Source: a virus. From it: 45,290 nucleotides of DNA. The position numbers and the translations under genes were made by a program. This document shows positions 14,630 through 31,076 of the stretch, piece after piece; position 1 is the stretch's first letter, and each line of letters opens with the position of its first letter. Location of the stretch: positions 1-45,290 of the IMG/VR virus record IMGVR_UViG_3300042882_001578; one strand, written 5' to 3'. The notes beneath the pieces were generated by a model. It had not been told where the DNA came from, ran no database searches, and saw nothing but the letters and a program-made list of their open reading frames with translations.

Positions 14630-16003
14630 ATGGGTAAAGCAATAAGTTCGGCAGATCCTGGTGTCAATATTAGCCTTGAAAATGGATTTCCGTCCGGGAT
14701 TAGTTTCCACGGAAAGAAAACGTCTATTAGACCGTCCCTTGGTTCAGGTGAGCCAGGACAAGAGAAACTGAAATATATTAGCCAGAACAACCAAGGCCGC
14801 GCAAATTGGCGGGCGGCTGGCGGTATACAAAAAATTATAGATATCGCCTCAATGACAAGCTCAACGGCTGGCGTTGGTTTCACAGCTAGTTATAACAATT
14901 GCACTGGATCATTAGTTGTTGATGAAACTGTCGATGGCGGTGAAGCTATTTATTGCACTCATACAGCATCAGCAACGAGTATTTATGCAAACTTTCTTCT
15001 CACAAGCTTCCCTAAAACCACGGTAACGCGAAAAGAGCTTGGCGTGTGGATTAAGTTTGACGATTGGTCACAGGTTAGCATTTTAACGATCTATGCGGGC
15101 GTATCAGGTTTAGCAACGACCGACACAACGGCAGTTACGATTACAAATAACGGCGATTATCAGGGTAATGGTTGGCGGTTTTTTAGCTATTATGCCGCAG
15201 TACCAAACACCACATCTATTGTTAATCTGCGCGTTAGAATTGACACAACCGGCGCAACTTCAGGTGTTAACTTCTCAATCGGGCCAGCTTATGCGGATAT
15301 TTCACAAACGCCCACATTTTCATTCAGTTTTGACGATGGCTATCTGGAGCATTACACGCTTGCAGCGCCTCTGTTAGAAGCATATGGTTTTAGAGGCACT
15401 TTTAGCATTATCGGCGAAAAAATAGATACTGCAAACTATATGACTAAAAGTCAGTTGATTGACTTGGTTAATCGAGGGCATGACTTACAAGTGCACGGTT
15501 TATCAGCGCTTAATACTTTTTCGTCAGATGAAGCAGCTTATGCAGATATTAAAGCTAATTATGATTATTTGGTTGGTATTGGTGTATTCCCAGAAGTCTA
15601 TGTCTTTCCTAACGGTGTATTACGATCTTATAAAAAAGATTTAGATTTTCTTAAAACACTGGGCATTAAATTAGCGCGTGGTGTTGGAAATGATGCGGCT
15701 GGTTCAACGACATTGCCGATGTTTTTCTTAAATGAACGGCCAAATTATGTTGAGCCGCGCAACATGGGTTGGAGCGTTACTGTTACGGGTACGCCAGCCC
15801 AATATCTGACAAATCTGGATGCTAACGTCACAAGAAAATCAAACTCGATAGGCATGTTCCACCAGATTGACTTATCCGGCGCAACTGGGCAAAGAATCAA
15901 TCTTGCCGATTTTGAAACGATTGTGGCAGGCGTTAGAACTCGACATGATTCGGGGGCGCTTAAATGCATGACTGTGAAAGAGTTGTTAAACGGTTATGTT
16001 TAA
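14630..16003 (+). CDS. polysaccharide-deacetylase-like (NodB fold) virion or secreted protein
   Basis: 457 aa. Residues 1-75 are an unassigned N-terminal region that could attach to the virion. Residues 75-220 form a beta-rich domain (carbohydrate-binding-like). From about 228 the NodB fold starts: FSFDDGY (Asp235-Asp236, catalytic/metal Asp), RGTFSIIGEKI, and GHDLQVHGLSAL, where His289 is kept but the second zinc His of H-x-x-x-H is Ala. Canonical enzymes remove acetyl groups from surface polysaccharides; the missing ligand makes activity doubtful. CGGAG precedes the start. Codon use looks different from the neighbouring head genes. First gene of the inserted cassette. Confidence 0.75.
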   Translation: MGKAISSADPGVNISLENGFPSGISFHGKKTSIRPSLGSGEPGQEKLKYISQNNQGRANWRAAGGIQKIIDIASMTSSTAGVGFTASYNNCTGSLVVDETVDGGEAIYCTHTASATSIYANFLLTSFPKTTVTRKELGVWIKFDDWSQVSILTIYAGVSGLATTDTTAVTITNNGDYQGNGWRFFSYYAAVPNTTSIVNLRVRIDTTGATSGVNFSIGPAYADISQTPTFSFSFDDGYLEHYTLAAPLLEAYGFRGTFSIIGEKIDTANYMTKSQLIDLVNRGHDLQVHGLSALNTFSSDEAAYADIKANYDYLVGIGVFPEVYVFPNGVLRSYKKDLDFLKTLGIKLARGVGNDAAGSTTLPMFFLNERPNYVEPRNMGWSVTVTGTPAQYLTNLDANVTRKSNSIGMFHQIDLSGATGQRINLADFETIVAGVRTRHDSGALKCMTVKELLNGYV

Positions 16004-16082
16004 AAAATGGAAAGCCGTATCTATGCCAATTCGGTGTTGGCGATTGGTTAAATTTTTATTTAGATCAAGGCTGAAACGATGA
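15996..16082 (+). CDS. possible 28-residue cationic peptide
   Basis: The ORF overlaps the deacetylase stop and ends in an ATGA overlap with the next gene. The product (MFKKWKAVSMPIRCWRLVKF, then LFRSRLKR) is very basic and amphipathic. It may be real or just the linker between coupled genes; there is no independent evidence. Confidence 0.22.
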   Translation: MFKKWKAVSMPIRCWRLVKFLFRSRLKR

Positions 16083-16249
16083 AAATCCACTGGAATCAAC
16101 CGAGCACGAAACGCAATGCTATCTGGTTAGTTGTTGGCATTGCTGGATTAATACAGTCTTGGGGAAATATATCTGTGCAGGATTTAATGTATCTTGGCGC
16201 TACGGTTGCGGGTGGTATGGGTGTAATGTCTGATGATTCTAAAAACTAG
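16079..16249 (+). CDS. small holin-like membrane protein
   Basis: 56 aa. A basic N-terminus (MKIHWNQPSTKRN) is followed by a transmembrane helix (AIWLVVGIAGLIQSW) and a second, weaker hydrophobic segment (DLMYLGATVAGGMGVM). Size and topology suit a small holin or lysis accessory protein. Next to a lipobox lipoprotein and more membrane genes, it belongs to a lysis cluster. The specific holin class is not recognised. Confidence 0.5.
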   Translation: MKIHWNQPSTKRNAIWLVVGIAGLIQSWGNISVQDLMYLGATVAGGMGVMSDDSKN

Positions 16250-16496
16250 CTTACTGCTCCTGCTCACAGCATGTAGCCACATTACATACGAAGCTCACCC
16301 TGACGGCAGCACCAAGGCCGAAGGGTGGGAATTTGGCACGACTACGGCGCTAGATGGAGCGAGGTTTGAAACGCGAACCGATGGATCACGGTATTTAAAA
16401 CTAGATGGATATAACGCTGATAGAGTGGAAGGAATGAAACAAATAAACCAAGGTTTGAGCCTTATAATCGAAGGTGCTGCAAAAGGAGTGAAATAG
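16233..16496 (+). CDS. small lipoprotein, possible outer-membrane spanin
   Basis: 87 aa. A short signal peptide with lipobox LLLLLTAC-S (Cys13 becomes lipidated), then a beta-like segment (ALDGARFETRTDGSRYLKLD) and a helical end. It overlaps the holin-like gene by 17 bases in another frame, the kind of nesting seen in spanin/lysis cassettes. Lipid anchoring is strongly predicted; the spanin role is inference, as there is no clear inner-membrane partner other than the one-helix protein at 16855. Confidence 0.55.
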   Translation: MILKTSLLLLLTACSHITYEAHPDGSTKAEGWEFGTTTALDGARFETRTDGSRYLKLDGYNADRVEGMKQINQGLSLIIEGAAKGVK

Positions 16497-16858
16497 TGGC
16501 GACACCCGTTTCAGAAACAATCCTGACCATATCAGCAGGATTGGCTACAACATTCATAACTGGCCCATATTGGGGTGCATTTGTTATTGCATTTGTGGCT
16601 AGCTTCACTCGGACGGCCTTCGAAGATAGTTGCGGGAGTTCCCATAGCCTGTGCTTCAGGCGGTGGATGCGCTTCCTGATGATGGCAATGGGGGTCAGCT
16701 TCTTAATGGTTAGTGTTGCGGCCTGGATGTTGATACCCACCCACCCGGCGATAGTGTTTGCCGGTTTTTTCGCGTGCTTCGCTGAAGAAACATTGATGGC
16801 TTTGAAACACTTACCGAAAAAAATGATCGAGAAGTTCTTTTCTGAGGTTACGAAATGA
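16496..16858 (+). CDS. multi-pass membrane protein, holin candidate (GTG start)
   Basis: 120 aa, GTG overlapping the previous TAG by one base. About three hydrophobic segments: residues 8-38 (ILTISAGLATTFITGPYWGA), 58-80 (FLMMAMGVSFLMVSVAAWML) and 83-100 (HPAIVFAGFFACFAEE), with a basic cytoplasmic end (LPKKMIEKFFSEVTK). This suits a class I-like holin. No named family recognised. Confidence 0.5.
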   Translation: MATPVSETILTISAGLATTFITGPYWGAFVIAFVASFTRTAFEDSCGSSHSLCFRRWMRFLMMAMGVSFLMVSVAAWMLIPTHPAIVFAGFFACFAEETLMALKHLPKKMIEKFFSEVTK

Positions 16859-17004
16859 CCGATTGTTATGTTGAAAAAAGAACACATTCAAGACGCTCCA
16901 CAGATCGATCAAAAAGATGGCAACTCATTGTGACAATGGGAACTCTATTCATTATTTGGTCGGCATTGGTCTATATTCATTGGTTGGTATCTAACTCTCA
17001 ATGA
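16855..17004 (+). CDS. single-pass membrane protein in lysis cluster
   Basis: 49 aa, ATGA overlaps on both sides. A basic N-terminus (EKRTHSRRSTDRSKRW) precedes one transmembrane helix (LIVTMGTLFIIWSALVYIHW) and a very short tail. Orientation is N-in. Could be an antiholin or small spanin partner; unproven. Confidence 0.45.
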   Translation: MTDCYVEKRTHSRRSTDRSKRWQLIVTMGTLFIIWSALVYIHWLVSNSQ

Positions 17005-17351
17005 AAACATACTGTATCCTCCATAAGGAATGTCGAGGGTGTTCCGAAGGGTTAATGTACTCAGCACGGTTCTACGGTGAACCGGTTGATGCGTCAGTAC
17101 CGTTCAATGTACTGCCGATATACGATGGTAGTTGTGCATTAAAGATGATCGATAATAATTGTCATATTAGTCGTATGGTTTTTCAACGAGGGAGATTTGA
17201 AAACCATCACCATTTAGATTTATGCTTGAGAATACTCGAACACGAACCACATATCGAAACGGCCACATTCGAACGTCATAAAAAAGACTCTGAGGTTGTT
17301 CGAACAGTGCGTATAATTGACAGAATTAAATTTTTGACAAGAGGGTCATGA
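17001..17351 (+). CDS. hypothetical Cys/His-rich protein
   Basis: 116 aa. Early cysteines (CILHKECRGCSE), a FENHHHLDLC stretch and a basic C-terminus. These could bind metal, but no known motif is complete. It lies between the lysis cluster and adhesin-type genes, coupled by ATGA to the gene before. Not recognised. Confidence 0.5.
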   Translation: MKTYCILHKECRGCSEGLMYSARFYGEPVDASVPFNVLPIYDGSCALKMIDNNCHISRMVFQRGRFENHHHLDLCLRILEHEPHIETATFERHKKDSEVVRTVRIIDRIKFLTRGS

Positions 17352-17352
17352 C

Positions 17353-17781
17353 ATGGCTTCAGCTAATTTTAGAAACTTACCTCGCGCATTAGCAAAAGCT
17401 GATGTAGATTTCGATACAATGACCTGTAAAGTGTTATTGGTGTCATCTATACCTTCGGATGCAAACCTGGATGCATGGGTGAACCGTTCTGATGTGACGA
17501 ATGAGATCACAGGTACTGGTTATACTGCTGGTGGTGTGGCTCAAGCATTCACGTTGGATGCTCTGGACACAACCAACAATCGTCAATCAGTCACTTACAC
17601 TGACAATCTCACTGCCTGGACGACAGCGACTATCACTGCGGTTGGTGCTATCATTTACAAAAACTCAGGGTCGGCAGCAACTGATACCCTGTTGCATTTT
17701 GTGGACTTCGGTGGAACGGTGTCGGTGACTGCTGGTACATTTGGTCTGGATTACACATCACCATTCTATATCAACGCGTAA
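17353..17781 (+). CDS. phage structural-type hypothetical protein (beta-rich)
   Basis: 142 aa, Thr/Ser/Ala-rich with alternating hydrophobics (TDNLTAWTTATITAVGAIIY), no charged clusters. Looks like a beta-sandwich virion protein of the kind found near tail-fibre genes. GGGTC lies before the start. Function not known. Confidence 0.5.
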   Translation: MASANFRNLPRALAKADVDFDTMTCKVLLVSSIPSDANLDAWVNRSDVTNEITGTGYTAGGVAQAFTLDALDTTNNRQSVTYTDNLTAWTTATITAVGAIIYKNSGSAATDTLLHFVDFGGTVSVTAGTFGLDYTSPFYINA

Positions 17782-17790
17782 GGAGTCAAC

Positions 17791-18309
17791 ATGAAAAGAA
17801 TTTTATATTTCATTATGCTGTTAAGCATGACATTTAGTGTATTAGCGCTAGACAGTACACAAAAAACCACGCTCAAGGCAGCGGTATTAGCTGAGCCAAC
17901 ACTGGCAACAGCCATTACAAACGGTGATGATATGACTGTTGCAGCCTGGTTTAACGCTAATTCAAGTTTTATAGTTTGGCGCACTAATGTTTCGTGCAAA
18001 GAGTATCGAGATTCAGCAATCGTATGGACTGCGGTAGATGCATTGACAGCAGGCAAGGCACGCATATGGGAATGGATGTGTAAAGACGAGTATATAAACC
18101 CGAGTAAAACTAATGTAAGACAAGGCTTTATTGATTCGTTTGGTGCAGCGAGTGCAACCACTACGGCAGCAACAGCACTTTCAAAGCGTAACGCAACCAA
18201 CGCCGAAAGGGCATTGGCAACCGGCACTGGTACAACAGGGAATCCTGGTTTGTTAACGTTCGAAGGGATGATTAGTGTTAATGAAATACCAGAAATGCTG
18301 AGGCCGTAA
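17791..18309 (+). CDS. phage hypothetical protein with signal-like N-terminus
   Basis: 172 aa. Residues 1-19 (MKRILYFIMLLSMTFSVLA) look like a cleavable signal peptide. The body (AAWFNANSSFIVWRTNVSCK, INPSKTNVRQGF, KRNATNAERALATGTGT) matches a recurrent phage protein type found next to tail-tip or fibre genes. In those it usually has no signal, so export here is odd. Function unknown. AAGGAG lies before the ATG. Confidence 0.5.
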   Translation: MKRILYFIMLLSMTFSVLALDSTQKTTLKAAVLAEPTLATAITNGDDMTVAAWFNANSSFIVWRTNVSCKEYRDSAIVWTAVDALTAGKARIWEWMCKDEYINPSKTNVRQGFIDSFGAASATTTAATALSKRNATNAERALATGTGTTGNPGLLTFEGMISVNEIPEMLRP

Positions 18310-18310
18310 A

Positions 18311-18757
18311 ATGTCAACTTTGATTGATGAATTAACGACTGGCCCACTGTCTCAAGAAATCGCTTTTGATTTATCTCAAGGTAATGATGGGGCTGTTCTT
18401 GCGGTGTTGCAACGCAAAGATGTTCAGCGATTGGGGAAGATAACGGCTCATGACATTAAGCAATATCTGTCGTTGATCGATGTCAGAATCCCAATCATGG
18501 AAAGCAGCGCACCTGCTTGTAAAGCAGTAACTCTGGCATTAGAGGACTTTCCGGTATTTGACCTTACTATCCCTATGGTACAGGTCAAGTTCATTGCCTT
18601 GTTAGACGCTCTGGTTGCGGAACCTCTTATACCCGATTTCACTGAAGAGCATAAAGCAACGTTGCTTACCATTGCTACTGAGCAAATAAGCAGATTAGAT
18701 GAAGTCGGGCTAAATGTAACAGCCCAAGACATTGCCCAAGCAAGGGAGTTAATCTAA
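18311..18757 (+). CDS. hypothetical phage protein
   Basis: 148 aa, helical, acidic. SLIDVRIPIMESSAPACKAV and DEVGLNVTAQDIAQAREL are visible but match no family I know. One-base gap after the preceding gene and one-base overlap with the next (TAATG), so tightly coupled inside the adhesin group. Confidence 0.5.
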   Translation: MSTLIDELTTGPLSQEIAFDLSQGNDGAVLAVLQRKDVQRLGKITAHDIKQYLSLIDVRIPIMESSAPACKAVTLALEDFPVFDLTIPMVQVKFIALLDALVAEPLIPDFTEEHKATLLTIATEQISRLDEVGLNVTAQDIAQARELI

Positions 18758-19209
18758 TGGCAACTATTACAGTTAAAGCCGGTACTAGAACCACACTGAC
18801 AACTTCAGCGCTGAACTCGCTAGGTAATGGAACTTATGTTTCAGCGGGTACTGTTGACGTTTCAGCGACAGACCCGATTGACGTGGTTATTGAGGTCGAG
18901 GTTACGCCTGGCACTGTGTCGAGCAATAAACAGTTAGTGGTATTTTTAAAACCTTCCTTTGACAATACCAATTTCGGCACTGGGCCAGAAACCGGCACAA
19001 CTACAACTGACGAAGCTAATCTGCGCTTTTTAGGCACTGTTCCACTTAATACGAACAGCACACAGCAAAGGAAATCGTTTAGTGTGGCGGCGTGTCTTGG
19101 GTATGTACCGCCATACTTTAAACCTATCTGCAAGAATGAATCAGGCGCAGCTTTGGCGGCTTCCGGCCATGCTGTTTATTACACAACTTTCGTAGGCGAC
19201 AGTGCGTAA
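18757..19209 (+). CDS. beta-rich virion-type hypothetical protein
   Basis: 150 aa, rich in Thr, Ser, Val; VVIEVEVTPGTVSSNKQLVV and AALAASGHAVYYTTFVGDSA suggest a beta-sandwich decoration or tail-associated protein. It overlaps its upstream gene by one base and abuts the adhesin gene. Function inferred only from neighbours. Confidence 0.5.
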   Translation: MATITVKAGTRTTLTTSALNSLGNGTYVSAGTVDVSATDPIDVVIEVEVTPGTVSSNKQLVVFLKPSFDNTNFGTGPETGTTTTDEANLRFLGTVPLNTNSTQQRKSFSVAACLGYVPPYFKPICKNESGAALAASGHAVYYTTFVGDSA

Positions 19210-20682
19210 ATGGGTATTATCAAATACCCAATACTAAAGAATATACAGCCACAGCAATTTGCTGGTTTAGCGAGTGACAACTATTTTGCTAGAAATCTCA
19301 AAGCTTTAGTTCTTGGTAATGAGCTGATAAACCCACTGTTACCTAATACGGGTGGTAATAACTCGCCAGCAAAGGTAGTCAGTTCAGCCGGGGTGGGTTG
19401 GGATGGTACTGGTTCAAAGTATTTATATAACCAGTCATTAACAACTGCAAGCGTAACCAACGGCAATATTGTTGGAACACTGTTTGTCCTATTTGTTCCA
19501 ACTTCTACAGCAATAAATCAAACATGGGCATCATTAGTCAATGGCTATGCATCAGCTCAAGAAAAATACACAGAATTTGGGTTAGGCACCAATGCAAGTG
19601 GGCAATACTCGCTGGTATCTCGTGGCGGTTTAGGTCGTGTATATGTCGGAAACGTTGGAACCCCTACAATAGGGCTTCCAACATTTTTTGCATGTTCGCA
19701 AACTAACAACGCAAGCAGACTATTTTGCTTAAACGGTATTATTTCAAGTAACACTACCAGCACTTCAGGCTCTGGCACTATGTATGCCGACAGTCTATCT
19801 GTTGGCTCTATCTATCGACCTCAACTTGGTTCTGTGTCGTTTACATCGGCAGGCCCGGTATTACTGGCAGGATGGATCAATAAAGCGCTAACCGAGCTGG
19901 AACTGAGAGAGTTATCAGCTAACCCTTGGCAAATTATTGAGCCGAAGCATAGGTCATTCTTTTTCAGTTCGATAAGCAGCACATCCGTAACAGGTTCTGG
20001 TACTATCGCTTCGTGTGATTTGTCGGCACCGAATACAAGTGTGACAACAAGTGCAACTGTCGGTATATCACTACCTATCATTGACCTATCAGCACCGAAT
20101 GCGACAGCAATTACTGTAAGCACTTCTATCGCTTCAGGGTCAATTGCTGTAACAACATTGACAGCACCATCATCGAGTGCAATAACAAACGCGAGTGCTT
20201 CAGGTAATATCGATTCAATTGATCTATCAGCACCGAACGCAACCGCGACAACAGTCGGTACAGTAATAGCATCGGGTACTATCGATTCAGTTGATCTATT
20301 GGCACCCAATGCTTCAGTCGTCGGTGCTAGTAGTGTAGTAGGGGTAGGTAGCTTACAACCAATCGATTTATCCGCACCGAACATATCGGCTGTTGCTGTG
20401 GTGATGGGATCGGGTAATTTCACCGGTATCACGCTTACAGCACCGTCGATACAAGGTGTTGCAGTAGTTGCTGCTGTTGGTGGTATATCATCAATCTCAC
20501 TCACTGCACCAACCATCACACAGGCACCGACTATAACCATGCCGGAGATTGTGAATTTTATGTTTGACATAAATACAGAATTCAGTCTTCCTTTTAACAT
20601 TGAAACAGAGTTTAATTTAGCTCAAAATTTAAACAAAGAACATACTTTTGAACCATTTAAAATTGTGGAAATGAGCCGATGA
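19210..20682 (+). CDS. LamG-like adhesin with eight DLSAPN-type repeats (tail fibre candidate)
   Basis: 490 aa. Residues 1-255 resemble concanavalin-A/LamG-like phage adhesins and contain the signature ELRELSANPWQIIEPKHRSF. Residues 270-440 hold about eight imperfect repeats of 22-25 aa, each centred on (I/V)(D/T)L(S/T)AP(N/S/T) and spaced by V/A/S/T/G-rich strands. The last 50 residues (TMPEIVNFMFDINTEFSLPF and on) are different and may bind the virion or the BppU-like partner encoded next. Probably a receptor-binding or surface-binding protein. Confidence 0.62.
   Translation: MGIIKYPILKNIQPQQFAGLASDNYFARNLKALVLGNELINPLLPNTGGNNSPAKVVSSAGVGWDGTGSKYLYNQSLTTASVTNGNIVGTLFVLFVPTSTAINQTWASLVNGYASAQEKYTEFGLGTNASGQYSLVSRGGLGRVYVGNVGTPTIGLPTFFACSQTNNASRLFCLNGIISSNTTSTSGSGTMYADSLSVGSIYRPQLGSVSFTSAGPVLLAGWINKALTELELRELSANPWQIIEPKHRSFFFSSISSTSVTGSGTIASCDLSAPNTSVTTSATVGISLPIIDLSAPNATAITVSTSIASGSIAVTTLTAPSSSAITNASASGNIDSIDLSAPNATATTVGTVIASGTIDSVDLLAPNASVVGASSVVGVGSLQPIDLSAPNISAVAVVMGSGNFTGITLTAPSIQGVAVVAAVGGISSISLTAPTITQAPTITMPEIVNFMFDINTEFSLPFNIETEFNLAQNLNKEHTFEPFKIVEMSR
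19992..20527 (+). repeat. intragenic tandem repeats (DLSAPN units)
   Basis: About eight degenerate 66-75-bp units inside the adhesin gene, recognisable at DNA level by variants of GATCTATCAGCACCGAA. Repeats of this kind can change copy number by recombination and alter fibre length. Confidence 0.6.
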
Positions 20683-20984
20683 AGCTGCGACGAAATACGA
20701 AAAACGTGTTATTCAATTTCCGTATATCTTCTGGGAATAGAGCTGTTAACCTAGGTGCTTATACCGTTACTGTACACATTCTTCCACCAAACAAGGTATT
20801 GATTTCGAAAGATGCTACTTTAATCGATGTTGGTATCAATGGTGGATGTAAAGTGCTCCTCACCGAGGTTGGAACATTTTCCCAGCTTGGACAATACGAA
20901 ATTCAATTAGAGGTAAAGGACGGTACTTCAATGTATCCAAGTGATATACAAACCTTCATGGTTGTTAGAAATAATTTTGATTGA
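20679..20984 (+). CDS. BppU N-terminal-like baseplate/fibre attachment protein
   Basis: 101 aa. KNVLFNFRISSGNRAVNLGA, then TVTVHILPPNK and GQYEIQLEVKDGTSMYPSDI, look like the Ig-like N-terminal domain of BppU-type baseplate proteins. Here it is a stand-alone domain, overlapping the adhesin gene by ATGA, so it may be the adaptor that mounts the adhesin. Confidence 0.5.
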   Translation: MKLRRNTKNVLFNFRISSGNRAVNLGAYTVTVHILPPNKVLISKDATLIDVGINGGCKVLLTEVGTFSQLGQYEIQLEVKDGTSMYPSDIQTFMVVRNNFD

Positions 20985-21561: not shown

Positions 21562-22941
21562 ATGGCTACAAGTACTTTTTATACCATAGAGCAGATTGGA
21601 CCAAAACAGAGTTTTACTCCTGAGGGTTTTTTGCTTTGTGAAGATGTACCTGTGGCCAGGACCGGAATGATGATTTACGGCCCAAATGAAACTCCAGTTG
21701 AAGCAGGTCCAGATGGCCTTGTAAAGATTCACCGTGAAGATGCCGATGTTTTCAGACCGGAGACTATTGCCAGCGCTCAAGGTAAATCAGTTACTAATGA
21801 CCATCCCGATGACGATGTCACACCAAACCTATGGAAAGAACTTAGCCATGGAATAATGCTTAACGTCCGCAGAGGTGTTGGCGCTTTTGATGATTTGCTT
21901 TTAGCTGATCTTTTGATTACAACAGAGGATGGTATAAAAGCAGTTCAAGAAGGCAAACGGGAGGTTAGCTTAGGTTATGAGGCAGACTATGTCCAATTAG
22001 CCCCAGGTATAGGCAAACAAACAAACATTATCATTAACCATGTAGCCTTAGTAGAACAAGGTAGATGTGGCCCACGTTGTGCAATTAAAGACGAGAAACC
22101 TGAAATTTCAAAAACAGAGGTAATTATGAAAACCAGAAAGACAAGAAGCATCCATGACAAACTAGCTTCCCTGCTGCGTCGTTCGTTTAAAGCGAAAGAT
22201 GAGGCGGAATTGGAAGATGTTATCCAAGACGCTGCAGAACTAGAAATTGGGGCAGTTTCTGGTGATGAAGAATTTGAACCACCGGTTGAGAAAGAGGATG
22301 AGGATATCCACATTCATGTTGATGGTCAGGATGATGGTGAAGATTTCCGTACCAACGATGACGAGTTATGGGAACAGAATGCTGCAGAGCATGCCGCTCT
22401 TTGGGAAGCTATCCATGAGTTAAGAGCTCAACTGGGTGGTGGAGTCGAAGATTCCGATCCAGACCTGGATATAAATGAGCAATCCTCAGAGCAGGCTATG
22501 TTGGATGAAGTTCCTGAAGGTTTGGAAGAAGAAGCTGCCAAAGCCCAAGATTCTCGTTACTTAGGTGAATCCTACCGAGACACCGTAGCTCTTGCCGAGA
22601 TCCTGGTTCCAGGTATTCAGCAACCGACTTTCGATAGTGCCACAAAACCAATGCAAACCTTTAAAAAGATTTGTGGTTTCCGTCGCAAAGCTTTGGACCT
22701 GGCTTACAAGGACAGTACCTCTAAACCCATCCTGGACGATTTGTTGCTTGGTAAACCGATGAACACTAAAAACATGACCTGCGACGCTGTTCGCACTTTG
22801 TTTAATTCAGCCGCTGCTACAAAACGCCGGATGAATAATAGTTCCGGTACCCGGGATTCTATTCAATTACCAAAATCACCTAAACCTTTGACTTTGGCTG
22901 AACTGAATGCTCGCAACCGCGAAAAATACGCTGTAAAATAA
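21562..22941 (+). CDS. prohead protease (DUF2213-like) fused to scaffold
   Basis: 459 aa. Residues 1-175 are the protease: RTGMMIYGPNETPVE, ITNDHPDDDV-type segment (TNDHPDDDVT, catalytic His), then GKREVSLGYEADY (Ser) and NHVALVEQGRCGPRC. Residues 189-459 are a highly charged, helical scaffold region. Inside it lie D-I-H-I-H-V (248-253), K-A-K-D-E (210-214) and K-A-Q-D-S (327-331). The protease should cleave scaffold and capsid proteins during maturation. It sits just before decoration and capsid genes. The fusion and an internal start (22126) parallel phages where protease and scaffold share one gene. Confidence 0.82.
   Translation: MATSTFYTIEQIGPKQSFTPEGFLLCEDVPVARTGMMIYGPNETPVEAGPDGLVKIHREDADVFRPETIASAQGKSVTNDHPDDDVTPNLWKELSHGIMLNVRRGVGAFDDLLLADLLITTEDGIKAVQEGKREVSLGYEADYVQLAPGIGKQTNIIINHVALVEQGRCGPRCAIKDEKPEISKTEVIMKTRKTRSIHDKLASLLRRSFKAKDEAELEDVIQDAAELEIGAVSGDEEFEPPVEKEDEDIHIHVDGQDDGEDFRTNDDELWEQNAAEHAALWEAIHELRAQLGGGVEDSDPDLDINEQSSEQAMLDEVPEGLEEEAAKAQDSRYLGESYRDTVALAEILVPGIQQPTFDSATKPMQTFKKICGFRRKALDLAYKDSTSKPILDDLLLGKPMNTKNMTCDAVRTLFNSAAATKRRMNNSSGTRDSIQLPKSPKPLTLAELNARNREKYAVK
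22126..22941 (+). CDS. probable scaffold protein from internal in-frame start
   Basis: Met189 of the protease-scaffold gene is preceded by AGAGG with five bases of spacing, and this is exactly where protease homology ends and charged helical sequence begins (MKTRKTRSIHDKLASLLRRS). It would give a 271-aa free scaffold, like lambda Nu3 inside gene C. The nested start is inferred. Confidence 0.4.
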   Translation: MKTRKTRSIHDKLASLLRRSFKAKDEAELEDVIQDAAELEIGAVSGDEEFEPPVEKEDEDIHIHVDGQDDGEDFRTNDDELWEQNAAEHAALWEAIHELRAQLGGGVEDSDPDLDINEQSSEQAMLDEVPEGLEEEAAKAQDSRYLGESYRDTVALAEILVPGIQQPTFDSATKPMQTFKKICGFRRKALDLAYKDSTSKPILDDLLLGKPMNTKNMTCDAVRTLFNSAAATKRRMNNSSGTRDSIQLPKSPKPLTLAELNARNREKYAVK

Positions 22942-22964
22942 CCCTTCCATAACGGAGATTTGAT

Positions 22965-23498
22965 ATGAAGAAAATGAGAATGAAAACCCGTGATGCGGCT
23001 TTCGGTTTCCGTATGGGAGCTGGTTTCGCGGGCGATGTAAACCGTACCCATCCGTCTAGCATTGAGCCTGCTTTAAACGATACCGGAACTCCTGTTGGAG
23101 CATTTGGCCACGCCGTTCTGGTCGACCAAACAGACCAAACTGTTCGTCCTTTTGCAGCTGGTGACACTGCTATAACTGTGGCCTACGGTGTTTCCGTTAG
23201 ACCCTATCCCTTTCAACAATCTTCTGCCAGTAACTTCGGTGAAGCTACTTTCGGAGATGCTGTTCCACCTGCTGGTGCCATCGATATCCTACGTTCGGGC
23301 TACATCATGGCAAAAGTGACTGGTACACCTAAAAAAGGTAACCCAGTCTATGTCTGGTGTGCGGCTTCTTCTGGGGCTCACGTACAAGGTCAGTTTGAAG
23401 CTTCCGCGACCGGTGGCTCCACAGCAGCTTTGGCAAACGCTACTTTCAACGGCTCACCTGATTCCTCTGGTGTAGTCGAAGTTGCTTTTAACATTTAA
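22965..23498 (+). CDS. head decoration / capsid-associated protein
   Basis: 177 aa. Lies between the protease-scaffold gene and the major capsid gene, the normal place for a decoration protein. The first 11 residues are basic (MKKMRMKTRDA) and contain K-T-R-D-A, the putative cleavage motif; the body is small-residue-rich beta sequence (PAGAIDILRSGYIMAKVTGT). Structural relatives in DUF2184 phages occupy the same slot. ACGGAG precedes the start. Confidence 0.68.
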   Translation: MKKMRMKTRDAAFGFRMGAGFAGDVNRTHPSSIEPALNDTGTPVGAFGHAVLVDQTDQTVRPFAAGDTAITVAYGVSVRPYPFQQSSASNFGEATFGDAVPPAGAIDILRSGYIMAKVTGTPKKGNPVYVWCAASSGAHVQGQFEASATGGSTAALANATFNGSPDSSGVVEVAFNI

Positions 23499-23510
23499 TA
23501 GGGGTTCAAG

Positions 23511-24656
23511 ATGAGCAAACTAGGTAAACATATCGCCCTTGCATTAGCACCGGCTATTATCACTCGCAGTAAGACCAGAGACATTATGACCTTCGATGAC
23601 TCTGGCTACCGTACTATTGACCGCTCTGGTACTCAAATGGGTCGTCCGTTAGGTAACTCTTTTCAAACACATGATGGACGCACTGTTGACTCAACCGGGG
23701 CTTTCTTGGTTGGTGAGCTGGAGCGCCTGGACTTAACCTTACATGAGCCATTGGCTTCTGTAACTTGGGGTCGAGATATTGACTTACGAGAAGACGTAAC
23801 CATAGCGGATGAAGTTTCATCCTTTACCTTAAGCACCTTCGCCGCTTCTGGTGGTTTAGGAACCGGTAATGGTATCCGTAACGGTAAAGCTTGGATCGGT
23901 AAAGATACCAATCAGATCTCTGGTATTGCTGCGGATATCGCTAAAATTCCACATCAATTGCGTCCTTGGGCTATGGAGTTGAAATACTCTATCTTGGAAT
24001 TGGAATCAGCTGCCAAGCTGGGCCGTCCAATTGACAACCAAAAATACGAAGGCTTGGCTCTGAAACATCAGATGGATATTGATGAGCAGGTTTACGTTGG
24101 TGATTCGACTACTGGTGACACCGGTTTGTTGAACAACTCCTTGGTAACCAATGTTCAAAACCTTCCGAACGGTGTAGCTGGTTCAACCAATTGGTCCGAT
24201 AAAACTCCGGATGAGATCCTGGCCGATGTTAACTTAATGTTGACTTCAGTCTGGTCCGCTTCAGCTTGGGCCGTTATGCCTACCCGGTTGCTATTGCCGC
24301 CTGCTCAATTTGGTTACATTAGCACTCAAAAGGTTTCCGCCGCTGGTAACGTTTCAATCTTGAAGTATATCCAAGAAAACAATTTGTTGACTACTTCTGG
24401 CCGCGGTTCGTTGGAAATCTTACCTGTAAAATGGTTAATTGGTGCAGGTGTTGGTGGTACTTTAGGTACTACCGGTACTGTGGACAGGGCAGTCGTCTAC
24501 ACGAAAGAGAAAAACCGTGTTCGTTTTCCAATGACCCTATTGCAACGTACTCCCGTTCAATATGATAGTATCTACCACAAAACCACATACTTTTGCCGCC
24601 TTGGTGCGGTTGAAGCGGTGTATCCGGAAACTATCGGTTACTTTGACGGAATCTAA
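23511..24656 (+). CDS. major capsid protein (DUF2184-like, HK97 fold)
   Basis: 381 aa. Recognisable by YRTIDRSGTQMGRPLGNSFQ, VTWGRDIDLREDV, PWAMELKYSILELESAAKLG and the QVYVGDSTTGDTGLLN loop, all typical of DUF2184 capsid proteins. The N-terminal 24 residues are basic and hydrophobic and end K-T-R-D-I, so residues 1-24 may be trimmed by the prohead protease. It forms the icosahedral shell. GGGG lies eight bases before the ATG. Confidence 0.88.
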   Translation: MSKLGKHIALALAPAIITRSKTRDIMTFDDSGYRTIDRSGTQMGRPLGNSFQTHDGRTVDSTGAFLVGELERLDLTLHEPLASVTWGRDIDLREDVTIADEVSSFTLSTFAASGGLGTGNGIRNGKAWIGKDTNQISGIAADIAKIPHQLRPWAMELKYSILELESAAKLGRPIDNQKYEGLALKHQMDIDEQVYVGDSTTGDTGLLNNSLVTNVQNLPNGVAGSTNWSDKTPDEILADVNLMLTSVWSASAWAVMPTRLLLPPAQFGYISTQKVSAAGNVSILKYIQENNLLTTSGRGSLEILPVKWLIGAGVGGTLGTTGTVDRAVVYTKEKNRVRFPMTLLQRTPVQYDSIYHKTTYFCRLGAVEAVYPETIGYFDGI

Positions 24657-24667
24657 GGAGAACTCTC

Positions 24668-25093
24668 ATGGCTAAAGCGCAAGCAAAAAAACCATGGGAA
24701 GCAACTGAAGCAGCGGCTGAAGAGGCCGCTGTACCTTCGACCAATCCCGTTACCGAGGAAGCTACCGATGTAGTTTCTGAGGAACCTGTGGTTGAATCAG
24801 TTGTCCCTGAGGAACCTGTGGTTGAGGAAGTAGTAGATTCGACTGATGAAGCCTCTGATACACCTACGGTTGAAGAAGATGCAAGTGAAGGTAAAGAACC
24901 TGAATCGGTTCCTACCCCAGCCCTCATTGGTGAGTTATTGCATACTGTGGTTGTTGTAGTTCCTAAGCAATACATCTTGAACCTTGATCACCATAAAAGT
25001 GTGACCTACCAAGCAGGTACTCAACGAATGGAACGTTCCCACGCAGATCATTGGTGGTCAAAAGCCAATGGTGTAACTATTTTTGTAGGCTAA
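24668..25093 (+). CDS. acidic-linker protein after the capsid gene
   Basis: 141 aa. Residues 10-85 are very acidic, with repeated EEPVVE units (two close copies of TGAGGAACCTGTGGTTGA in the DNA). Residues 90-141 form a compact domain (VPKQYILNLDHHKSVTYQAG, then WWSKANGV) seen in small phage head or neck proteins. The acidic arm could bind basic capsid-interior surfaces. AAGGAG precedes the start. Function unknown. Confidence 0.6.
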   Translation: MAKAQAKKPWEATEAAAEEAAVPSTNPVTEEATDVVSEEPVVESVVPEEPVVEEVVDSTDEASDTPTVEEDASEGKEPESVPTPALIGELLHTVVVVVPKQYILNLDHHKSVTYQAGTQRMERSHADHWWSKANGVTIFVG

Positions 25094-25094
25094 T

Positions 25095-25256
25095 ATGGAA
25101 GGCCAAGTCGATAAACCAGTTGGCCTTCCAATAAAGGATCTTGCTCAGGTGGAAGAGAATGATGTTTCTTTTTTACCTGTAGCAGAATCCCTATCTCTTC
25201 AACAGCTGAACGATAATAACAGAAAGTATTGGGAACAAGGGGAAAACCATGACTAA
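25095..25256 (+). CDS. small hypothetical protein with start codon inside a hairpin
   Basis: 53 aa, not found by length cut-offs. The C-terminal LSLQQLNDNNRKYWEQGEN resembles a short motif (..A.NRKYW...) seen in other phage proteins. It overlaps the first HIH-tag gene by eight bases. Its ATG lies at the edge of an 11-bp perfect hairpin (25096-25130) that should hide the start. Confidence 0.5.
   Translation: MEGQVDKPVGLPIKDLAQVEENDVSFLPVAESLSLQQLNDNNRKYWEQGENHD
25096..25130 (+). promoter_or_regulatory. 11-bp perfect hairpin over a start codon
   Basis: TGGAAGGCCAA and TTGGCCTTCCA pair perfectly around a 13-nt loop. The 5' arm begins at the second base of the ATG at 25095. No T tract follows, so it is more likely a translation-control or RNA-processing hairpin than a terminator. 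Confidence 0.55.
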
Positions 25257-25467
25257 ACATATTCACGTCCACATTGGCAAAAAGAAAACCACTGATGCTG
25301 ATTATTCCTATAATGTTGGTCAAGCTACGTTGGCCCTGGATAAAGCCCACTATGAACTTTTATCTGCTCAAAGAAGCGATGATATTGACCAAGATGGTGA
25401 TTCCAGAATCGAGGATGCTTTGAAACTTATCCGGAAGGCAAAAGATATTGTACTCAGGATAAAGTAA
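25249..25467 (+). CDS. HIH-tag small protein 1 (putative internal head protein)
   Basis: 72 aa. Begins MTKHIHVHIGKKKTTDA: alternating His residues on a short strand, a lysine run, then K-T-T-D-A. The remaining 56 residues form a two-helix hairpin (YNVGQATLALDKAHYELLSA and EDALKLIRKAKDIVLRIK). The same start occurs in four other genes of this window whose bodies differ. It lies between capsid-associated and connector genes. I infer a capsid-targeting tag removed by cleavage after Asp16; function of the mature part is unknown. Confidence 0.65.
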   Translation: MTKHIHVHIGKKKTTDADYSYNVGQATLALDKAHYELLSAQRSDDIDQDGDSRIEDALKLIRKAKDIVLRIK

Positions 25468-25930: not shown

Positions 25931-26488
25931 GTGAACCTCAAGAACGCCTTGCAGATGACCTTGGATCTACTGCCGGATGTGAAGATCAGGCTTTCGTCCT
26001 TGGTTGATGCGGAAGTTCTTGTTGGTGTTCCAGAAGATAATACCCAACGTCAGGATAATGGTCCGACCAATTCAATGCTGGCCTATATTCATGACAACGG
26101 TTCCCCGATTAGGAATATTCCAGCCAGGCCTTTTATGAGGCCTGGAATAGCTTCTGCTAAAAGTGATGTTATTCGGGCTCTTAAGTGGGGAGCGGATGAA
26201 GTTTTGGATGGTAATGAAAACGCCGGCCGTTTGGCTTTACATAAAGCCGGATTAATAGCTCAAGCTAAAATACGCGCAGCTATTAATGAAGGAATCCCAC
26301 CTCCACTAGCCGACTCTACCTTGAAAGGTAGGATAAGAGCGCGAAGAGGGGTAAAAGGTGCCACCGCGGAATTAGCTGCTAGAAAAGCCGGGGAAATGCC
26401 TTCCCTTGGGTTGGCTAAGCCTTTAATTAATACCGGGCAGCTTCGCAACTCAATTAACTACATTGTAAGGAAAAAGAAAAATGGCTAG
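25931..26488 (+). CDS. tail-completion / virion morphogenesis protein (HK97 gp10-like region)
   Basis: 185 aa from GTG 25931, one base after the previous stop (TGAGGTG). The reading frame is open back to 25859, but that part only shadows the connector gene. Features: VGVPEDNTQRQDN, SMLAYIHDNGSP, IPARPFMRPGI and a basic C-terminus with LINTGQLRNSINYIVRKKKN, the pattern of gp10/Mu G-type neck proteins where PARPF.RPG and TG.L..SI recur. Ends eight bases inside the next HIH-tag gene. Confidence 0.72.
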   Translation: MNLKNALQMTLDLLPDVKIRLSSLVDAEVLVGVPEDNTQRQDNGPTNSMLAYIHDNGSPIRNIPARPFMRPGIASAKSDVIRALKWGADEVLDGNENAGRLALHKAGLIAQAKIRAAINEGIPPPLADSTLKGRIRARRGVKGATAELAARKAGEMPSLGLAKPLINTGQLRNSINYIVRKKKNG

Positions 26489-26516
26489 ACATATTCATAT
26501 TCATATAGGAATGAAA
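26447..26516 (+). repeat. duplicated block, copy A (gene end plus HIH tag)
   Basis: From AACTCAATTAACTACATT through the HIH-tag codons this block is closely similar to 26963-27032, including an identical GTAAGGAAAAAGAAAAATGG stretch. In copy A it is the 3' end of the tail-completion gene and the start of HIH protein 2. Confidence 0.7.
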
Positions 26517-26918
26517 ACTACCTCCAGAGTTCGAGATTCGGAAGATCCTCGAGTCCTCGAAGGATTGGCTAACCATGCTATTGAAAAATTACGATCAGGT
26601 AACACCGGGTTTCCATTTGAAAATGTCGCTAACCAAGCCATTAAGTCTTATCAAACAGCCTCAGAACTATATACAAACCAAAATGATCCACAAGGGCAAC
26701 GGAGATGCAACCTTAAGGTCCAAGCTATTAAAAAAGCTCTTTCAGAATATGAAAGATTAGTGGGTGATGTTAAGAGGCTTTCGGCTTTATCGATGGAAAT
26801 ATACAAAAAAGAATCTTCTGGGGCTGAGGTTCCAAGAGCCGAAAAATTACGAGTCTCTAGGGAGTACAAGGCAGCGGAAGCTTCCCTACGGAAACCGTTT
26901 CAAAATATCAGTATCTAA
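26481..26918 (+). CDS. HIH-tag small protein 2 (putative internal head protein)
   Basis: 145 aa. Begins MARHIHIHIGMKTTSRVRDS; the tag is kept but the K-x-x-D-A site is altered to a longer K-T-T-S-R-V-R-D-S. The body is entirely helical and charged (NQAIKSYQTASELYTNQNDP, AIKKALSEYERLVGDVKRLS), like a TPR/coiled-coil repeat. It overlaps the tail-completion gene by eight bases; the ribosome site (GTAAGGAAAAAG) is inside that gene. Function unknown. Confidence 0.62.
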   Translation: MARHIHIHIGMKTTSRVRDSEDPRVLEGLANHAIEKLRSGNTGFPFENVANQAIKSYQTASELYTNQNDPQGQRRCNLKVQAIKKALSEYERLVGDVKRLSALSMEIYKKESSGAEVPRAEKLRVSREYKAAEASLRKPFQNISI

Positions 26919-26962: not shown

Positions 26963-27032
26963 AACTCAATCGACTATGGTGTAAGGAAAAAGAAAAATGG
27001 CTAAACATATCCACATTCACGTAGGAAAAAGA
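26963..27032 (+). repeat. duplicated block, copy B (fossil gene end plus HIH tag)
   Basis: AACTCAATCGACTATGGTGTAAGG followed by the shared GAAAAAGAAAAATGG leader. The noncoding part still reads V-R-K-K-K-N-G-stop, the exact C-terminus of the tail-completion protein, so it is a leftover of that gene carried along with the tag. Confidence 0.7.
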
Positions 27033-27275
27033 AAAACCACTGATGCTTTCAATCCTCAATCTATGATAGCCCTTTGTAGATCCGCAATCAAGAATGCAGC
27101 AGCTTTCCAAGAAGCTGCAGGCAATAGACCTGGTGCGGCTAAAGTTTACGCGGAGGCTATTTCCGCTTATGAGAAAGGGATGTCGGCTGCAAGAAAAGGG
27201 AATGAGGATGAAAGCAAATCTTATTATACCAAAGGTAACAACCTCACTAGGCAAGCACATACCATAGCAGCTTAA
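26997..27275 (+). CDS. HIH-tag small protein 3 (putative internal head protein)
   Basis: 92 aa. MAKHIHIHVGKRKTTDA is followed by a 76-residue helical body (CRSAIKNAAAFQEAAGNRPG, AAKVYAEAISAYEKGMSAAR), a TPR-like hairpin loosely similar to protein 1. Both flanks are fossil sequence: the upstream leader is the 3' end of the tail-completion gene, and 27331-27349 repeats the 3' end of HIH gene 1. It looks like an inserted, recombined cassette. Confidence 0.63.
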   Translation: MAKHIHIHVGKRKTTDAFNPQSMIALCRSAIKNAAAFQEAAGNRPGAAKVYAEAISAYEKGMSAARKGNEDESKSYYTKGNNLTRQAHTIAA

Positions 27276-27790: not shown

Positions 27791-28116
27791 AACTTAATGT
27801 CTTAGATGCTTCTGGGGTACCTCAGCAATTACTGGTCGAAGGATTAGAGGCGATTACTGATAAATCAGGTTCCATTACCGCAACCGGTGTCTCCCAAGTC
27901 GCTATTGCGGCTAATAGTGCCCGGTCTGGATTTCTGATCCAGAATAGAAGTCTGAATCCGATGCATATTAATGACCTCGGAGCAGCTACTGTCGGGGCTA
28001 GTTCTTTTACTTTGGCCCCTGGCGAATGCTTTCCACCAGCCGGCTACCCAATAACTGCCAATGCGATCAATATCCTTGGTACTGTTTCAGATATATTTTC
28101 CGCGAGGGAGTGGTAA
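27787..28116 (+). CDS. small beta-rich virion protein
   Basis: 109 aa. SQVAIAANSARSGFLIQNRS, then PMHINDLGAATVGASSFTLA, GYPITANAINILGT: a jelly-roll-like fold common in small phage structural proteins. Coupled by ATGA at its start and TAATG at its end to HIH gene 4. Exact role unknown. Confidence 0.55.
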   Translation: MKLNVLDASGVPQQLLVEGLEAITDKSGSITATGVSQVAIAANSARSGFLIQNRSLNPMHINDLGAATVGASSFTLAPGECFPPAGYPITANAINILGTVSDIFSAREW

Positions 28117-28538
28117 TGGCAATTCATATTCATATTGGAAAAAAGAAGGCTAAAGATGCTGTTAAGTACGTCAGTAATATCGATATCCGCCTTCCGAATG
28201 GTAAAGTGGTCCCGAACGGGACTGTTTTCTATAAAATTGGGCCAAACCTTTATCGGCCTTATTTTGCCAGACCGGGAGAGTCAGATGTCCGCATCTCTCC
28301 AGATAGATTCGTTATTGAGGATAGTAAAGCTAAAGATGCTACTCCATCCGCTTTTTTGAAAAAGCACCCAATGTGGAGTGAATCCGATTACTCCTATTTT
28401 AAAAACAAAGGGTATACGGACAAGGAGATTTTAGCTCTTTGGGATCGAGATCAAAAAAGTGGTGGAGGCCCGGTTAATCATAAACCTATTCCAAATGTGC
28501 TCGGCAGGATAAACGGTAAAATTGTAACTAATGCCTAA
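28116..28538 (+). CDS. HIH-tag small protein 4, possible two-part precursor
   Basis: 140 aa from ATG 28116 (TAATG overlap); an upstream in-frame start at 28026 only shadows the previous gene. MAIHIHIGKKKAKDA is the tag with K-A-K-D-A. Residues 16-70 are a beta-rich domain (NGTVFYKIGPNLYRPYFARP). Then a second K-A-K-D-A occurs, followed by a helical domain (SESDYSYFKNKGYTDKEILA) known as a short module in other phage proteins. If the motif is a cleavage site, one precursor would give two mature peptides. Confidence 0.63.
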   Translation: MAIHIHIGKKKAKDAVKYVSNIDIRLPNGKVVPNGTVFYKIGPNLYRPYFARPGESDVRISPDRFVIEDSKAKDATPSAFLKKHPMWSESDYSYFKNKGYTDKEILALWDRDQKSGGGPVNHKPIPNVLGRINGKIVTNA

Positions 28539-30632: not shown

Positions 30633-31076
30633 ATGACCACTTACTCATTTTTAGAGGTCAATGCGGCGCTTGTTGGTCCAGGTGGAGCAATCAACTTGGG
30701 GCAAGGGGCAGCTGCCTCGGAAGAAGGTATAAGCATTGATCCAACTAGTCCAATCAACACCATGACTATTGCCGCGGATGGTACTCCAATGCAATCCCTT
30801 GGTGCCGATAAATCCGGGGTTGTCACCGTTACCTTGTTGAAAACCTCTCCTACTAATGCAAAGCTGTCAGCTATGTATGCTTTGCAAACAGCCTCTCCGG
30901 CTAGCCATGGACAGAACACCTTAACGGTGGCTTTGACTCATCTCGGTGACGTAATTACTTGTCAGCAAGTAGCTTTTCAAAAAGCCCCAAGTTTGAAGTA
31001 TGCGAAAGAAGGTGGTACTAATGACTGGGTTTTTGACGCCGGTATCATTGATCGTACGCTTGGTGGATTGATCTAA
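30633..31076 (+). CDS. tail tube protein (DUF3277-like)
   Basis: 147 aa. TYSFLEVNAALVGPGGAINL, SEEGISIDPTSPINTMTIAA, GTPMQSLGADKSGVVTVTLL, then NDWVFDAGIIDRTLGGLI: a standard DUF3277 tube subunit, following the sheath gene as usual. AAGGAG nine bases before the ATG. Its last base is the first of HIH gene 5's ATG. Confidence 0.9.
   Translation: MTTYSFLEVNAALVGPGGAINLGQGAAASEEGISIDPTSPINTMTIAADGTPMQSLGADKSGVVTVTLLKTSPTNAKLSAMYALQTASPASHGQNTLTVALTHLGDVITCQQVAFQKAPSLKYAKEGGTNDWVFDAGIIDRTLGGLI

Follow-up and report, generated by a model that had tools for sequence, protein, structure and literature searches.

A predicted prohead-protease cleavage code after aspartate in the head proteins and HxHxH-tagged small proteins of a DUF2213 phage

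The window analysed here is the whole 45,290-nucleotide stretch of the IMG/VR virus record IMGVR_UViG_3300042882_001578. It carries genes for a portal protein fused to a NUDIX domain, a DUF2213 protein joining a protease to a scaffold, a cement (decoration) protein, a major capsid protein and five small proteins with an HIH tag at the N-terminus, which are called cargo below on the interpretation proposed. The features are as follows, a slash within a site marking the predicted cut.

11573–13399, plus strand: portal protein, 608 aa, with a C-terminal NUDIX domain at residues 485–594 (PF06381, E=1.5e-92; PF00293, E=2e-13)
11636–11650, plus strand: N-terminal portal site K22-T-V-D25/S26, conserved in homologous portals
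13007–13021, plus strand: portal site K479-T-T-D482/T483, directly before the NUDIX domain, recurring in fusions
21562–22941, plus strand: DUF2213 protease-scaffold protein, 459 aa, protease at residues ~10–178 and helical scaffold at ~180–459
21802–21804, plus strand: His81, candidate catalytic residue, invariant in 83 homologues
21967–21969, plus strand: Ser136 (E-V-S-x-G-Y), candidate nucleophile, invariant in 83 homologues
22039–22041, plus strand: His160 (G-N-H-x-A-L-V), candidate third catalytic residue, invariant in 83 homologues
22189–22203, plus strand: scaffold site 1, K210-A-K-D213/E214, at the break between helices 197–210 and 214–230
22306–22326, plus strand: scaffold H-x-H motif I249-H-I-H-V-D-G, in a disordered loop (pLDDT <50 at 233–262)
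22540–22554, plus strand: scaffold site 2, K327-A-Q-D330/S331, between helices
22846–22860, plus strand: scaffold site 3, G429-T-R-D432/S433, ahead of the last helix
22965–23498, plus strand: cement protein, 177 aa (PF23982, E=6e-22; PF22758, E=2e-20)
22983–22997, plus strand: cement site K7-T-R-D10/A11, in register with extensionless homologues
23511–24656, plus strand: major capsid protein, 381 aa (PF09950, E=2e-78)
23571–23585, plus strand: capsid site A, K21-T-R-D24/I25, in register in extended homologues
23679–23693, plus strand: capsid site B, R57-T-V-D60/S61, candidate mature N-terminus by conservation
25249–25467, plus strand: HIH-tagged cargo 1, 72 aa; tag MTKHIHVHIGKKKTTD/A at 25249–25299
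26481–26918, plus strand: HIH-tagged cargo 2, 145 aa; tag MARHIHIHIGMKTTSRVRD/S at 26481–26540
26997–27275, plus strand: HIH-tagged cargo 3, 92 aa; tag MAKHIHIHVGKRKTTD/A at 26997–27047
28116–28538, plus strand: HIH-tagged cargo 4, 140 aa; tag MAIHIHIGKKKAKD/A at 28116–28160
31076–31300, plus strand: HIH-tagged cargo 5, 74 aa, with a homologue in L021; tag MAIHIHVGKKTVD/A at 31076–31117

Computation gives good support for regarding the DUF2213 protein as a protease of the assemblin/T4 gp21 fold with a helical scaffold tail, its proteolytic activity being inferred. The protein matches PF09979 (E=2.4e-48) and is assigned in PHROG to head maturation protease. Its AF2 model, for which phage-record rows were left out of the input, reaches a pLDDT of ~97 over residues 10–178, and the modelled protease aligns with T4 gp21 (5jbl) at Z=11.3 and rmsd 2.5 over 129 residues (VIA-align), the next-best fold matches being herpesvirus proteases at Z 6–8.6. 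A Foldseek search of the whole protein against the PDB gave nothing at E<=0.001. The conserved serine with histidine partners fits assemblin-type proteases as far as conservation goes, but the catalytic roles are inferred without active-site geometry. The arrangement of assemblin-type systems, a protease fused to its scaffold and encoded beside the capsid gene, is also met.

A short K-(T/A)-x-D motif is shared by these proteins, and the sequence-only reading had placed it at residues 7–11 of the cement protein, 21–25 of the capsid protein, and 210–214 and 327–331 of the protease-scaffold protein. All four positions held, whereas both portal sites, the better-conserved capsid site B and the third strong scaffold site had been overlooked. 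The count against shuffled sequences that it suggested has been carried out, and the motif exceeds the shuffled level in head and cargo proteins and lies near chance elsewhere. K[TAV]xD occurs 15 times in the head and cargo proteins (2148 aa) against a shuffled mean of 1.94, a number reached by none of 1000 shuffles, and 10 times in all remaining window proteins (11993 aa) against a mean of 6.10 (P 0.09). When a small residue is required after Asp, the counts are 9 against 0.56 expected and 1 against 1.97, respectively. Moreover, the motif starts within residues 1–35 in 7 of 9 head and cargo proteins and in only 2 of 55 others (Fisher 2e-6). Some circularity attaches to these window counts, since the proteins counted are those from which the motif was derived; tests on relatives escape this, because there a motif learned on one class of protein is tried on a different class.

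Across relatives the sites keep their register. In extended cement homologues the gap from the site Asp to the R-M core is 5 in 33 of 35, and most homologues without the extension have 5–6 residues from Met to the core, which matches it. Of 98 extended capsid homologues, 86 have an Asp 2–3 residues ahead of the T[FY]D core (9.7 expected), and the extensionless ones have 1–2 residues from Met to the core. Thus, where the extension is missing, capsid and cement homologues begin at the position of the predicted new N-terminus. Capsid site B is conserved still more widely (T 120/129, D 129/129, S 112/129), extensionless proteins included. The N-terminal portal site, although the motif was no condition of the search, retains D in 63/63, T in 46/63 and S in 56/63 homologues, and in all six portal-NUDIX fusions a site lies at most 14 aa from the NUDIX start (shuffled mean 0.08). 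It is possible that conservation of the portal D-S-F, as well as that of capsid D60, is structural. In the scaffold the sites coincide with helix breaks of the model; Asp213 is invariant in 7 and at least 90% conserved in 87 homologues, and the aligned relatives read T-R-D-[AS] at site 1.

The code derived from 149 related loci reads [KR]-[TA]-x-D/[small], with Asp at P1 in all inferred sites; the (L/I)xE specificity of the T4 type, with Glu at P1, was not met. The rule first proposed, a cut after Asp in K-(T/A/V)-x-D-small, therefore held in part: Asp is kept, the code widens to [KR]x[TA]xD/[ASGN], and other lineages have AMD/S or [IV]GD/A. Lysine as an obligatory residue was rejected, P4 being R or K in 70 of 92 capsid sites, or else aromatic. 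A profile trained on these 92 capsid sites only finds a site directly behind the HIH tags in 27 of 47 cases at shuffle P<0.05, as against 6 of 204 control N-termini (P = 1e-14), and on scaffolds it finds 586 sites against 121 expected. It should be noted that related loci are not independent of one another.

The tagged proteins are mostly small and without family match, and many pairs align over residues 1–13 to 1–20 only, the remainder being unrelated mosaics. Cargo 4 has a second KAKD/A at 28326–28340, between two modules that relatives carry separately, and cargo leaders without a good site exist, for example L016 11408 and L035 11510. LPD3 is present in 3 of 48 tagged proteins, one of them L134, and in none of the window cargo. 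The H-x-H loop motif has a match in 57 of 148 scaffold homologues. Among loci of at least 10 kb, tagged ORFs are found in 21 of 39 with a scaffold HxHxH but in 1 of 83 without it; the tags are thus almost confined to phages with the scaffold motif, which suggests capsid targeting like that of T4, although in roughly half the loci whose scaffold has HxHxH the available stretch contains no tagged ORF. A blind DNA scan of 2.9 million contigs for the tag found 35, of which 20 encode DUF2213; a stricter pattern found one contig and a scrambled pattern no match. The tag matches in L202, L204 and L211 were discarded as not being real ORFs (9–34 aa). Two cultured relatives, Edwardsiella phage ZHS and Burkholderia phage BgManors32, carry the tag as well as the code; in ZHS the predicted cuts follow ARTRD in the cement protein, TMD in the portal, and ARTRD and/or RTVD in the capsid protein, and the tagged proteins would lose their HIH leader. 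It is unlikely that the tag is conserved as a DNA element rather than as a peptide, because the five window tags differ in synonymous codons. A literature search on HIHIH gave no phage-head paper among the best-ranked results.

More distant phages show related codes. The Pbunavirus E217/Pa193 head (gp23/gp24 scaffold) likewise has a DUF2213-like protease-scaffold, cement, capsid and a portal ending in an extra domain, here InPase, and the window protease domain matches 9b40_G at E=6.5e-5. AMD/S occurs there in portal, capsid and scaffold, a motif picked after looking, and the deduced code is A-x-D/S, with Ala at P3 and Met, Ala or Gln at P2. The solved E217 capsid chain begins at N66, two residues past D64; the visible portal chain begins at residue 97 in E217 and at 94 in Pa193, and LC-MS did not detect the first 93 residues. 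In both proteins the unseen N-terminal parts end at or beyond AMD/S. The Pa193 authors were unable to tell whether gp24 is cut. For Pa193 the code predicts new N-termini at S65 of the capsid protein and S73 of the portal, and cuts at AAD/S, AMD/S and AQD/S in gp24. These phages differ from ours in this code and in having a cement protein without a leader. In Acinetobacter phage 5W, [IV]GD, also picked after looking, occurs 9 times in portal, capsid and scaffold (0.46 expected) and once in the other ORFs (1.5 expected). In XM1 the 324-aa capsid protein lacks density for only 30 N-terminal residues, close to the offset at which related Vibrio capsid proteins have their D-site; this agreement is of length only, since the XM1 sequence was not found.

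Among known systems, T4 IPI–III and Alt (PMC7411985, PMC9024508) offer the same layout, a short N-terminal leader on unrelated internal proteins that is removed by the gp21 prohead protease, to which the DUF2213 protease is related in fold. Two features of the T4-type capsid-targeting leader are met, in that the leader is shared by otherwise unrelated proteins and ends in the capsid/scaffold site (the 27 of 47 above). T4 uses Glu at P1. Here, unlike in T4, the leader is HxHxH with Asp at P1, the protease is fused to the scaffold, and portal and cement bear the site; the leader sequences themselves were not compared. SPN3US gp245 (PMC7411985), of gp21-like specificity, resembles our case in applying one code, A-x-E, to capsid, ejection proteins and protease propeptide, but the residue here is Asp rather than Glu, and the propeptides have 10–60 residues rather than over 100; no HxHxH tag is reported in the relevant sections of that paper. 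Phage P1 DarB/DarA are head-loaded proteins with a localisation signal, and the N-termini of capsid and DarA are thought to be cut by Pro, but these are large proteins with a different signal. Domains of the polyvalent protein class (Iyer et al. 2017, PMC5512222) recur as LPD3 in three tagged proteins and as InPase in the E217 portal; unlike that class, the tagged proteins here are mostly small and without family match.

We consider it likely (probability about 0.85) that the prohead protease encoded by this phage uses the motif as its cleavage code. This agrees with the earlier suggestion of a prohead protease cutting after Asp, which computation supports well, the cutting itself being inferred: no cleavage has been measured in this phage, and no cleavage, virion-proteome or N-terminal data stand behind the code for it or close relatives. 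Sequence analysis shows a common code that keeps its register and is confined to head and cargo proteins, the fold of the protease, and an association of the tag with the scaffold motif. That the sites are in fact cut, and in what order, that the tag targets its bearers and that cargo is ejected are inferences. In the mechanism proposed, the DUF2213 serine protease, of the assemblin/gp21 type and joined to the helical scaffold, would sit in the prohead core and at maturation cut after Asp in [KR]-x-[TAV]-x-D/[ASGNIE]. It would cut its own scaffold in the interhelix linkers at D213, D330 and D432, the cement leader at D10, the capsid N-arm at D24 and/or D60, the portal N-terminus at D25 and, at D482, the linker tying the NUDIX enzyme to the portal. 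The leaders of the five small tagged proteins would also be cut. The most likely role of the HxHxH leader, a copy of the scaffold HxHxH segment, is to target proteins to the capsid; its bearers would therefore be taken into the core, after which removal of the tag would set them free as cargo in the head, from where they may be ejected with the DNA. A bolder reading, against which we lean slightly, has the cargo joining the scaffold's own intermolecular HxHxH strand or metal-linked stack and being freed by the scaffold's protease, with the T-x-D, AMD-S or [IV]GD code evolving in step by lineage in portal, scaffold, capsid, cement and cargo.

The alternative that survives best, to which we give about even odds, is that cutting of the leaders does occur, with the deeper D60 as the one site that matters in the capsid protein, D24 being unused or a mere intermediate. 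R-T-[VI]-D-S is found in nearly all homologues, extensionless included, and the 30-residue gap of XM1 approximates the Vibrio D-site offset; on the other side, D24 shares R/K-T-R-D with the cement and cargo leaders and fits the extensionless starts, and D60 adjoins the conserved fold and may be structural. As the capsid protein has at least two candidate sites, cutting at D24 may come early, or D24 may instead serve in binding, and it is possible that the mature end is S61 rather than I25. AF2 cannot separate the two because the capsid model is poor (pLDDT 63.6, residues 1–87 mostly under 50). A search for solved relatives of the capsid protein gave only Pam3 at E<0.01.

It is also possible, though less likely, that HxHxH has no targeting role; it might, for instance, form a strand that binds metal or oligomerises in small regulatory or tail proteins, the processing of these proteins being incidental. 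Alternating histidines can bind metal, and some tagged genes lie among tail genes. Against this, cargo proteins are often alike only in the first 13–20 residues, the tag co-occurs with the scaffold HxHxH, a head-protease site follows it, and the peptide is kept while codons vary.

Very unlikely is the view that T-x-D is an uncut assembly or docking motif of head proteins, such as an arm binding capsid or scaffold. In its favour, the motif lies in N-terminal arms, which often make contacts, and the capsid R-x-x-T-R-D plus T[FY]D exceeds a minimal cut site in length. However, the motif also stands between portal and NUDIX and between scaffold helices, extensionless homologues lack it and start exactly behind its position, and in E217 the invisible part of both capsid and portal reaches the site or extends beyond it. 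Chance origin of short motifs in lysine-rich proteins is all but excluded: the MKTKDI of the unrelated minus-strand gene at 41414, a caveat raised at the outset, is real and ten K[TAV]xD lie outside head proteins, but that is about the shuffled level, inside the excess is 8-fold, the sites are conserved over 149 loci, and shuffles plus transfer tests reject it.

DUF2213 phages are common (473 phage records), though Pfam lists the protein as uncharacterised, and the authors of the XM1 structure left its scaffold unidentified and could offer a metalloprotease candidate only as a guess. The code would account for missing density in published virion structures. In this phage and many relatives, head-loaded and head-trimmed proteins would become predictable from what appears to be one short Thr-any-Asp site, and a portal-NUDIX fusion with a built-in cut site suggests a second route for loading. 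The leader suggests a compact targeting tag for loading proteins into the capsids of DUF2213 phages; if the bolder reading is true, a leader of 15–20 residues would predict head-loaded phage proteins without further data. With a testable code and a readable leader, small phage genes that are otherwise anonymous could be recognised as predicted head cargo.

The sequence-only reading, made by a model, had proposed K-(T/A)-x-D as the cleavage code of the prohead protease, pointing to K-T-R-D-A at residues 7-11 of the decoration protein, K-T-R-D-I at residues 21-25 of the capsid protein, and K-A-K-D-E (210-214) and K-A-Q-D-S (327-331) in the scaffold half of the DUF2213 protein, which also carries the protease domain. 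All four motifs are present at these residues. The window makes up an entire IMG/VR virus record, 45,290 bases long. The genes concerned are as follows.

21562-22941, DUF2213 gene (protease-scaffold)
22965-23498, cement (decoration) gene, PF23982/PF22758
23511-24656, major capsid gene, PF09950
Starts 25249, 26481, 26997, 28116 and 31076, the related HIH-tag genes (cargo 1-5; predicted head cargo with an HxHxH leader)

Directly after the capsid gene, 24668-25093 encodes an acidic Val/Glu-rich protein that matches no family and lacks a cut-site. A gene block at 14630-20984, between a MuF-like gene and the protease, breaks the usual head-gene order and includes a polysaccharide deacetylase (PF01522).

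When K-[TAV]-x-D was counted against shuffled sequences, the head and cargo proteins were enriched (portal, protease-scaffold, cement, capsid and cargo, 15 versus 1.94 expected), while the remaining window proteins were near expectation (10 versus 6.10); the motif lies within residues 1-35 in 7 of 9 head or cargo proteins versus 2 of 55 others. There is some circularity in this count, the motif having been taken from these very proteins, and therefore relatives were examined: six related phages, 80 viral loci from the DUF2213 alignment and 80 prokaryotic-genome loci from the capsid alignment, or 149 loci once near-duplicates are removed. These loci are not statistically independent and their gene starts are predicted.

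The capsid site has the consensus R(82)-x-[RK](70)-T(80)-R(68)-D-[GSAN] (n = 92 capsid proteins), and 86 of the 98 capsid proteins with an extension have the Asp 2-3 residues upstream of the T[FY]D core (9.7 expected). Many homologues, chiefly of enterobacterial prophages, lack the N-terminal extension and start with ML-TFD, MPM-TFD or MF-TVD, that is, with the end that cutting the extended forms after Asp would give. The cement protein follows the same pattern, D/VAFTYRM in extended and M/VAFTYRM in extensionless forms (the slash marks the predicted cut), with a gap of 5 between Asp and the R-M core in 33 of 35, and of 5 or 6 between Met and the core in most. Since these two unrelated proteins agree, a cut directly after Asp is inferred, from sequence alone and without any measured cleavage. 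A profile built only from capsid sites finds 586 sites in the scaffold halves (121 expected) and just 116 in the protease halves (63 expected).

The capsid site of the sequence-only reading must be corrected, as there is a deeper, better-conserved second site, R-T-[VI]-D60/S61 (T 120/129, D 129/129, S 112/129), which is also kept in extensionless capsid proteins; more distant relatives retain T-x-D at the aligned D60 position. In phage XM1, 30 of the 324 capsid residues are missing at the N-terminus (PMC10457771), which is closer to the deeper site. For these reasons D24 is probably cut, although no cleavage has been measured, and S61 is a possible mature N-terminus; the quality of the AF2 model of the capsid protein is too low for a decision.

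The portal sites had been overlooked. In 63 portals, the element preceding F-x-N-F, searched for without demanding D or T, has D in 63/63, T at -2 in 46/63 and S at +1 in 56/63, and in the window it reads K22-T-V-D25/S26. The window portal (PF06381, residues 62-410) is fused to NUDIX (PF00293, residues 485-594), and K-T-T-D482/T lies immediately upstream of the NUDIX domain, a layout matched in five related fusions. With a pattern widened slightly after looking, a site falls no more than 14 residues from the NUDIX start in 6/6 fusions versus 0.08 expected. The C-terminal NUDIX lies at 13025-13354; in the comparison phage E217 the portal bears an InPase domain in its place. Fusion to the portal thus looks like a loading route for enzymes that has been used repeatedly.

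As to the protease, H81, S136 and H160 are invariant in 83 homologues. The AF2 model (pLDDT about 97 over residues 10-178) best matches T4 gp21 (5jbl; Z 11.3, 2.5 A over 129 residues), followed by herpesvirus assemblins; the remainder is modelled as helical, and D213, D330 and D432, where the protein is predicted to cut itself, lie at inter-helix breaks. Two proteases of related loci (L006:9832 and L005:5644) have an additional N-terminal leader bearing RTRDG or KTTDS, so the enzyme might trim its own N-terminus as well.

Leaders of the form M-x(1-4)-H-[IV]-H-[IV]-H number 47 on the coding strand versus 5 on the opposite strand. Among loci of at least 10 kb they are nearly confined to those with HxHxH in the scaffold loop (21/39; 1/83 without it, that one apparently false); the window protease gene product has I-H-I-H-V-D-G at residues 249-255. 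When 2.9 million viral contigs were scanned blind at the DNA level with two tag patterns, 35 matched; 20 of these encode DUF2213 (including 14 of the 17 that measure 20 kb or more) and a further two the capsid family. A scrambled tag pattern found none. Here [TAVS]xD follows the tag in 21 of 27 distinct N-termini, several of the 27 being chance non-ORFs. Of 47 tagged proteins, 27 have a site directly after the tag according to the capsid-only profile (shuffle P<0.05), versus 6 of 204 control N-termini (Mann-Whitney 1e-14), and some tagged proteins have no good site. Tagged proteins are often alike only over the first 13-20 residues and otherwise mosaics; most have no family match, and three contain LPD3, a polyvalent-protein domain. 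The simplest reading, by analogy with the detachable capsid-targeting leader of T4 (PMC7411985, PMC9024508) and with no cleavage measured, is that the tag is such a leader, and its likeness to the scaffold HxHxH segment may hint at its mode of action.

Cargo 4 (28116-28538) has a second site, KAKD/A, between two modules that appear separately or reordered in tagged proteins of the related loci L001, L015 and L082, as though a single tag could deliver two peptides. Cargo genes 2 and 3 have a nearly identical 16-base leader (GTAAGGAAAAAGAAAA) abutting ATG (26461-26480 and 26977-26996), which suggests recent duplication. Many tagged proteins (L001, L005, L006, L047, L082, L134, L185, L193) continue with W-x-E-x-x-H-P-R-x-x-x-G-x-F, also found inside PHROG 30637 (1119 positions) and the L124 portal linker. 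L183 is a 28,868-base contig with a tagged ORF in which no DUF2213 and no capsid protein of the PF09950 family was detected; it may be a fragment or another head type with the same tag.

In other phages, used as an independent check, the code differs, the variants having been picked after looking. The distant Pbunavirus E217/Pa193, whose scaffold is DUF2213-like, has A-M-D-S in the capsid protein (D64), portal (D72) and scaffold (D412), the last with A-A-D-S and A-Q-D-S in addition. The first 65 residues of the E217 capsid protein are not visible (PMC10329688) and the deposited chain begins at N66; the portal becomes visible only at residue 97 in E217 and at 94 in Pa193, where the first 93 residues were not found by LC-MS and the authors were unable to say whether the scaffold is cut (PMC11042391). 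Acinetobacter phage 5W has [IV]-G-D in the portal, capsid and scaffold (9 versus 0.46 expected; 1 versus 1.5 in its other ORFs). The recurrence of each variant in three proteins of one phage is what would be expected if substrates track their protease.
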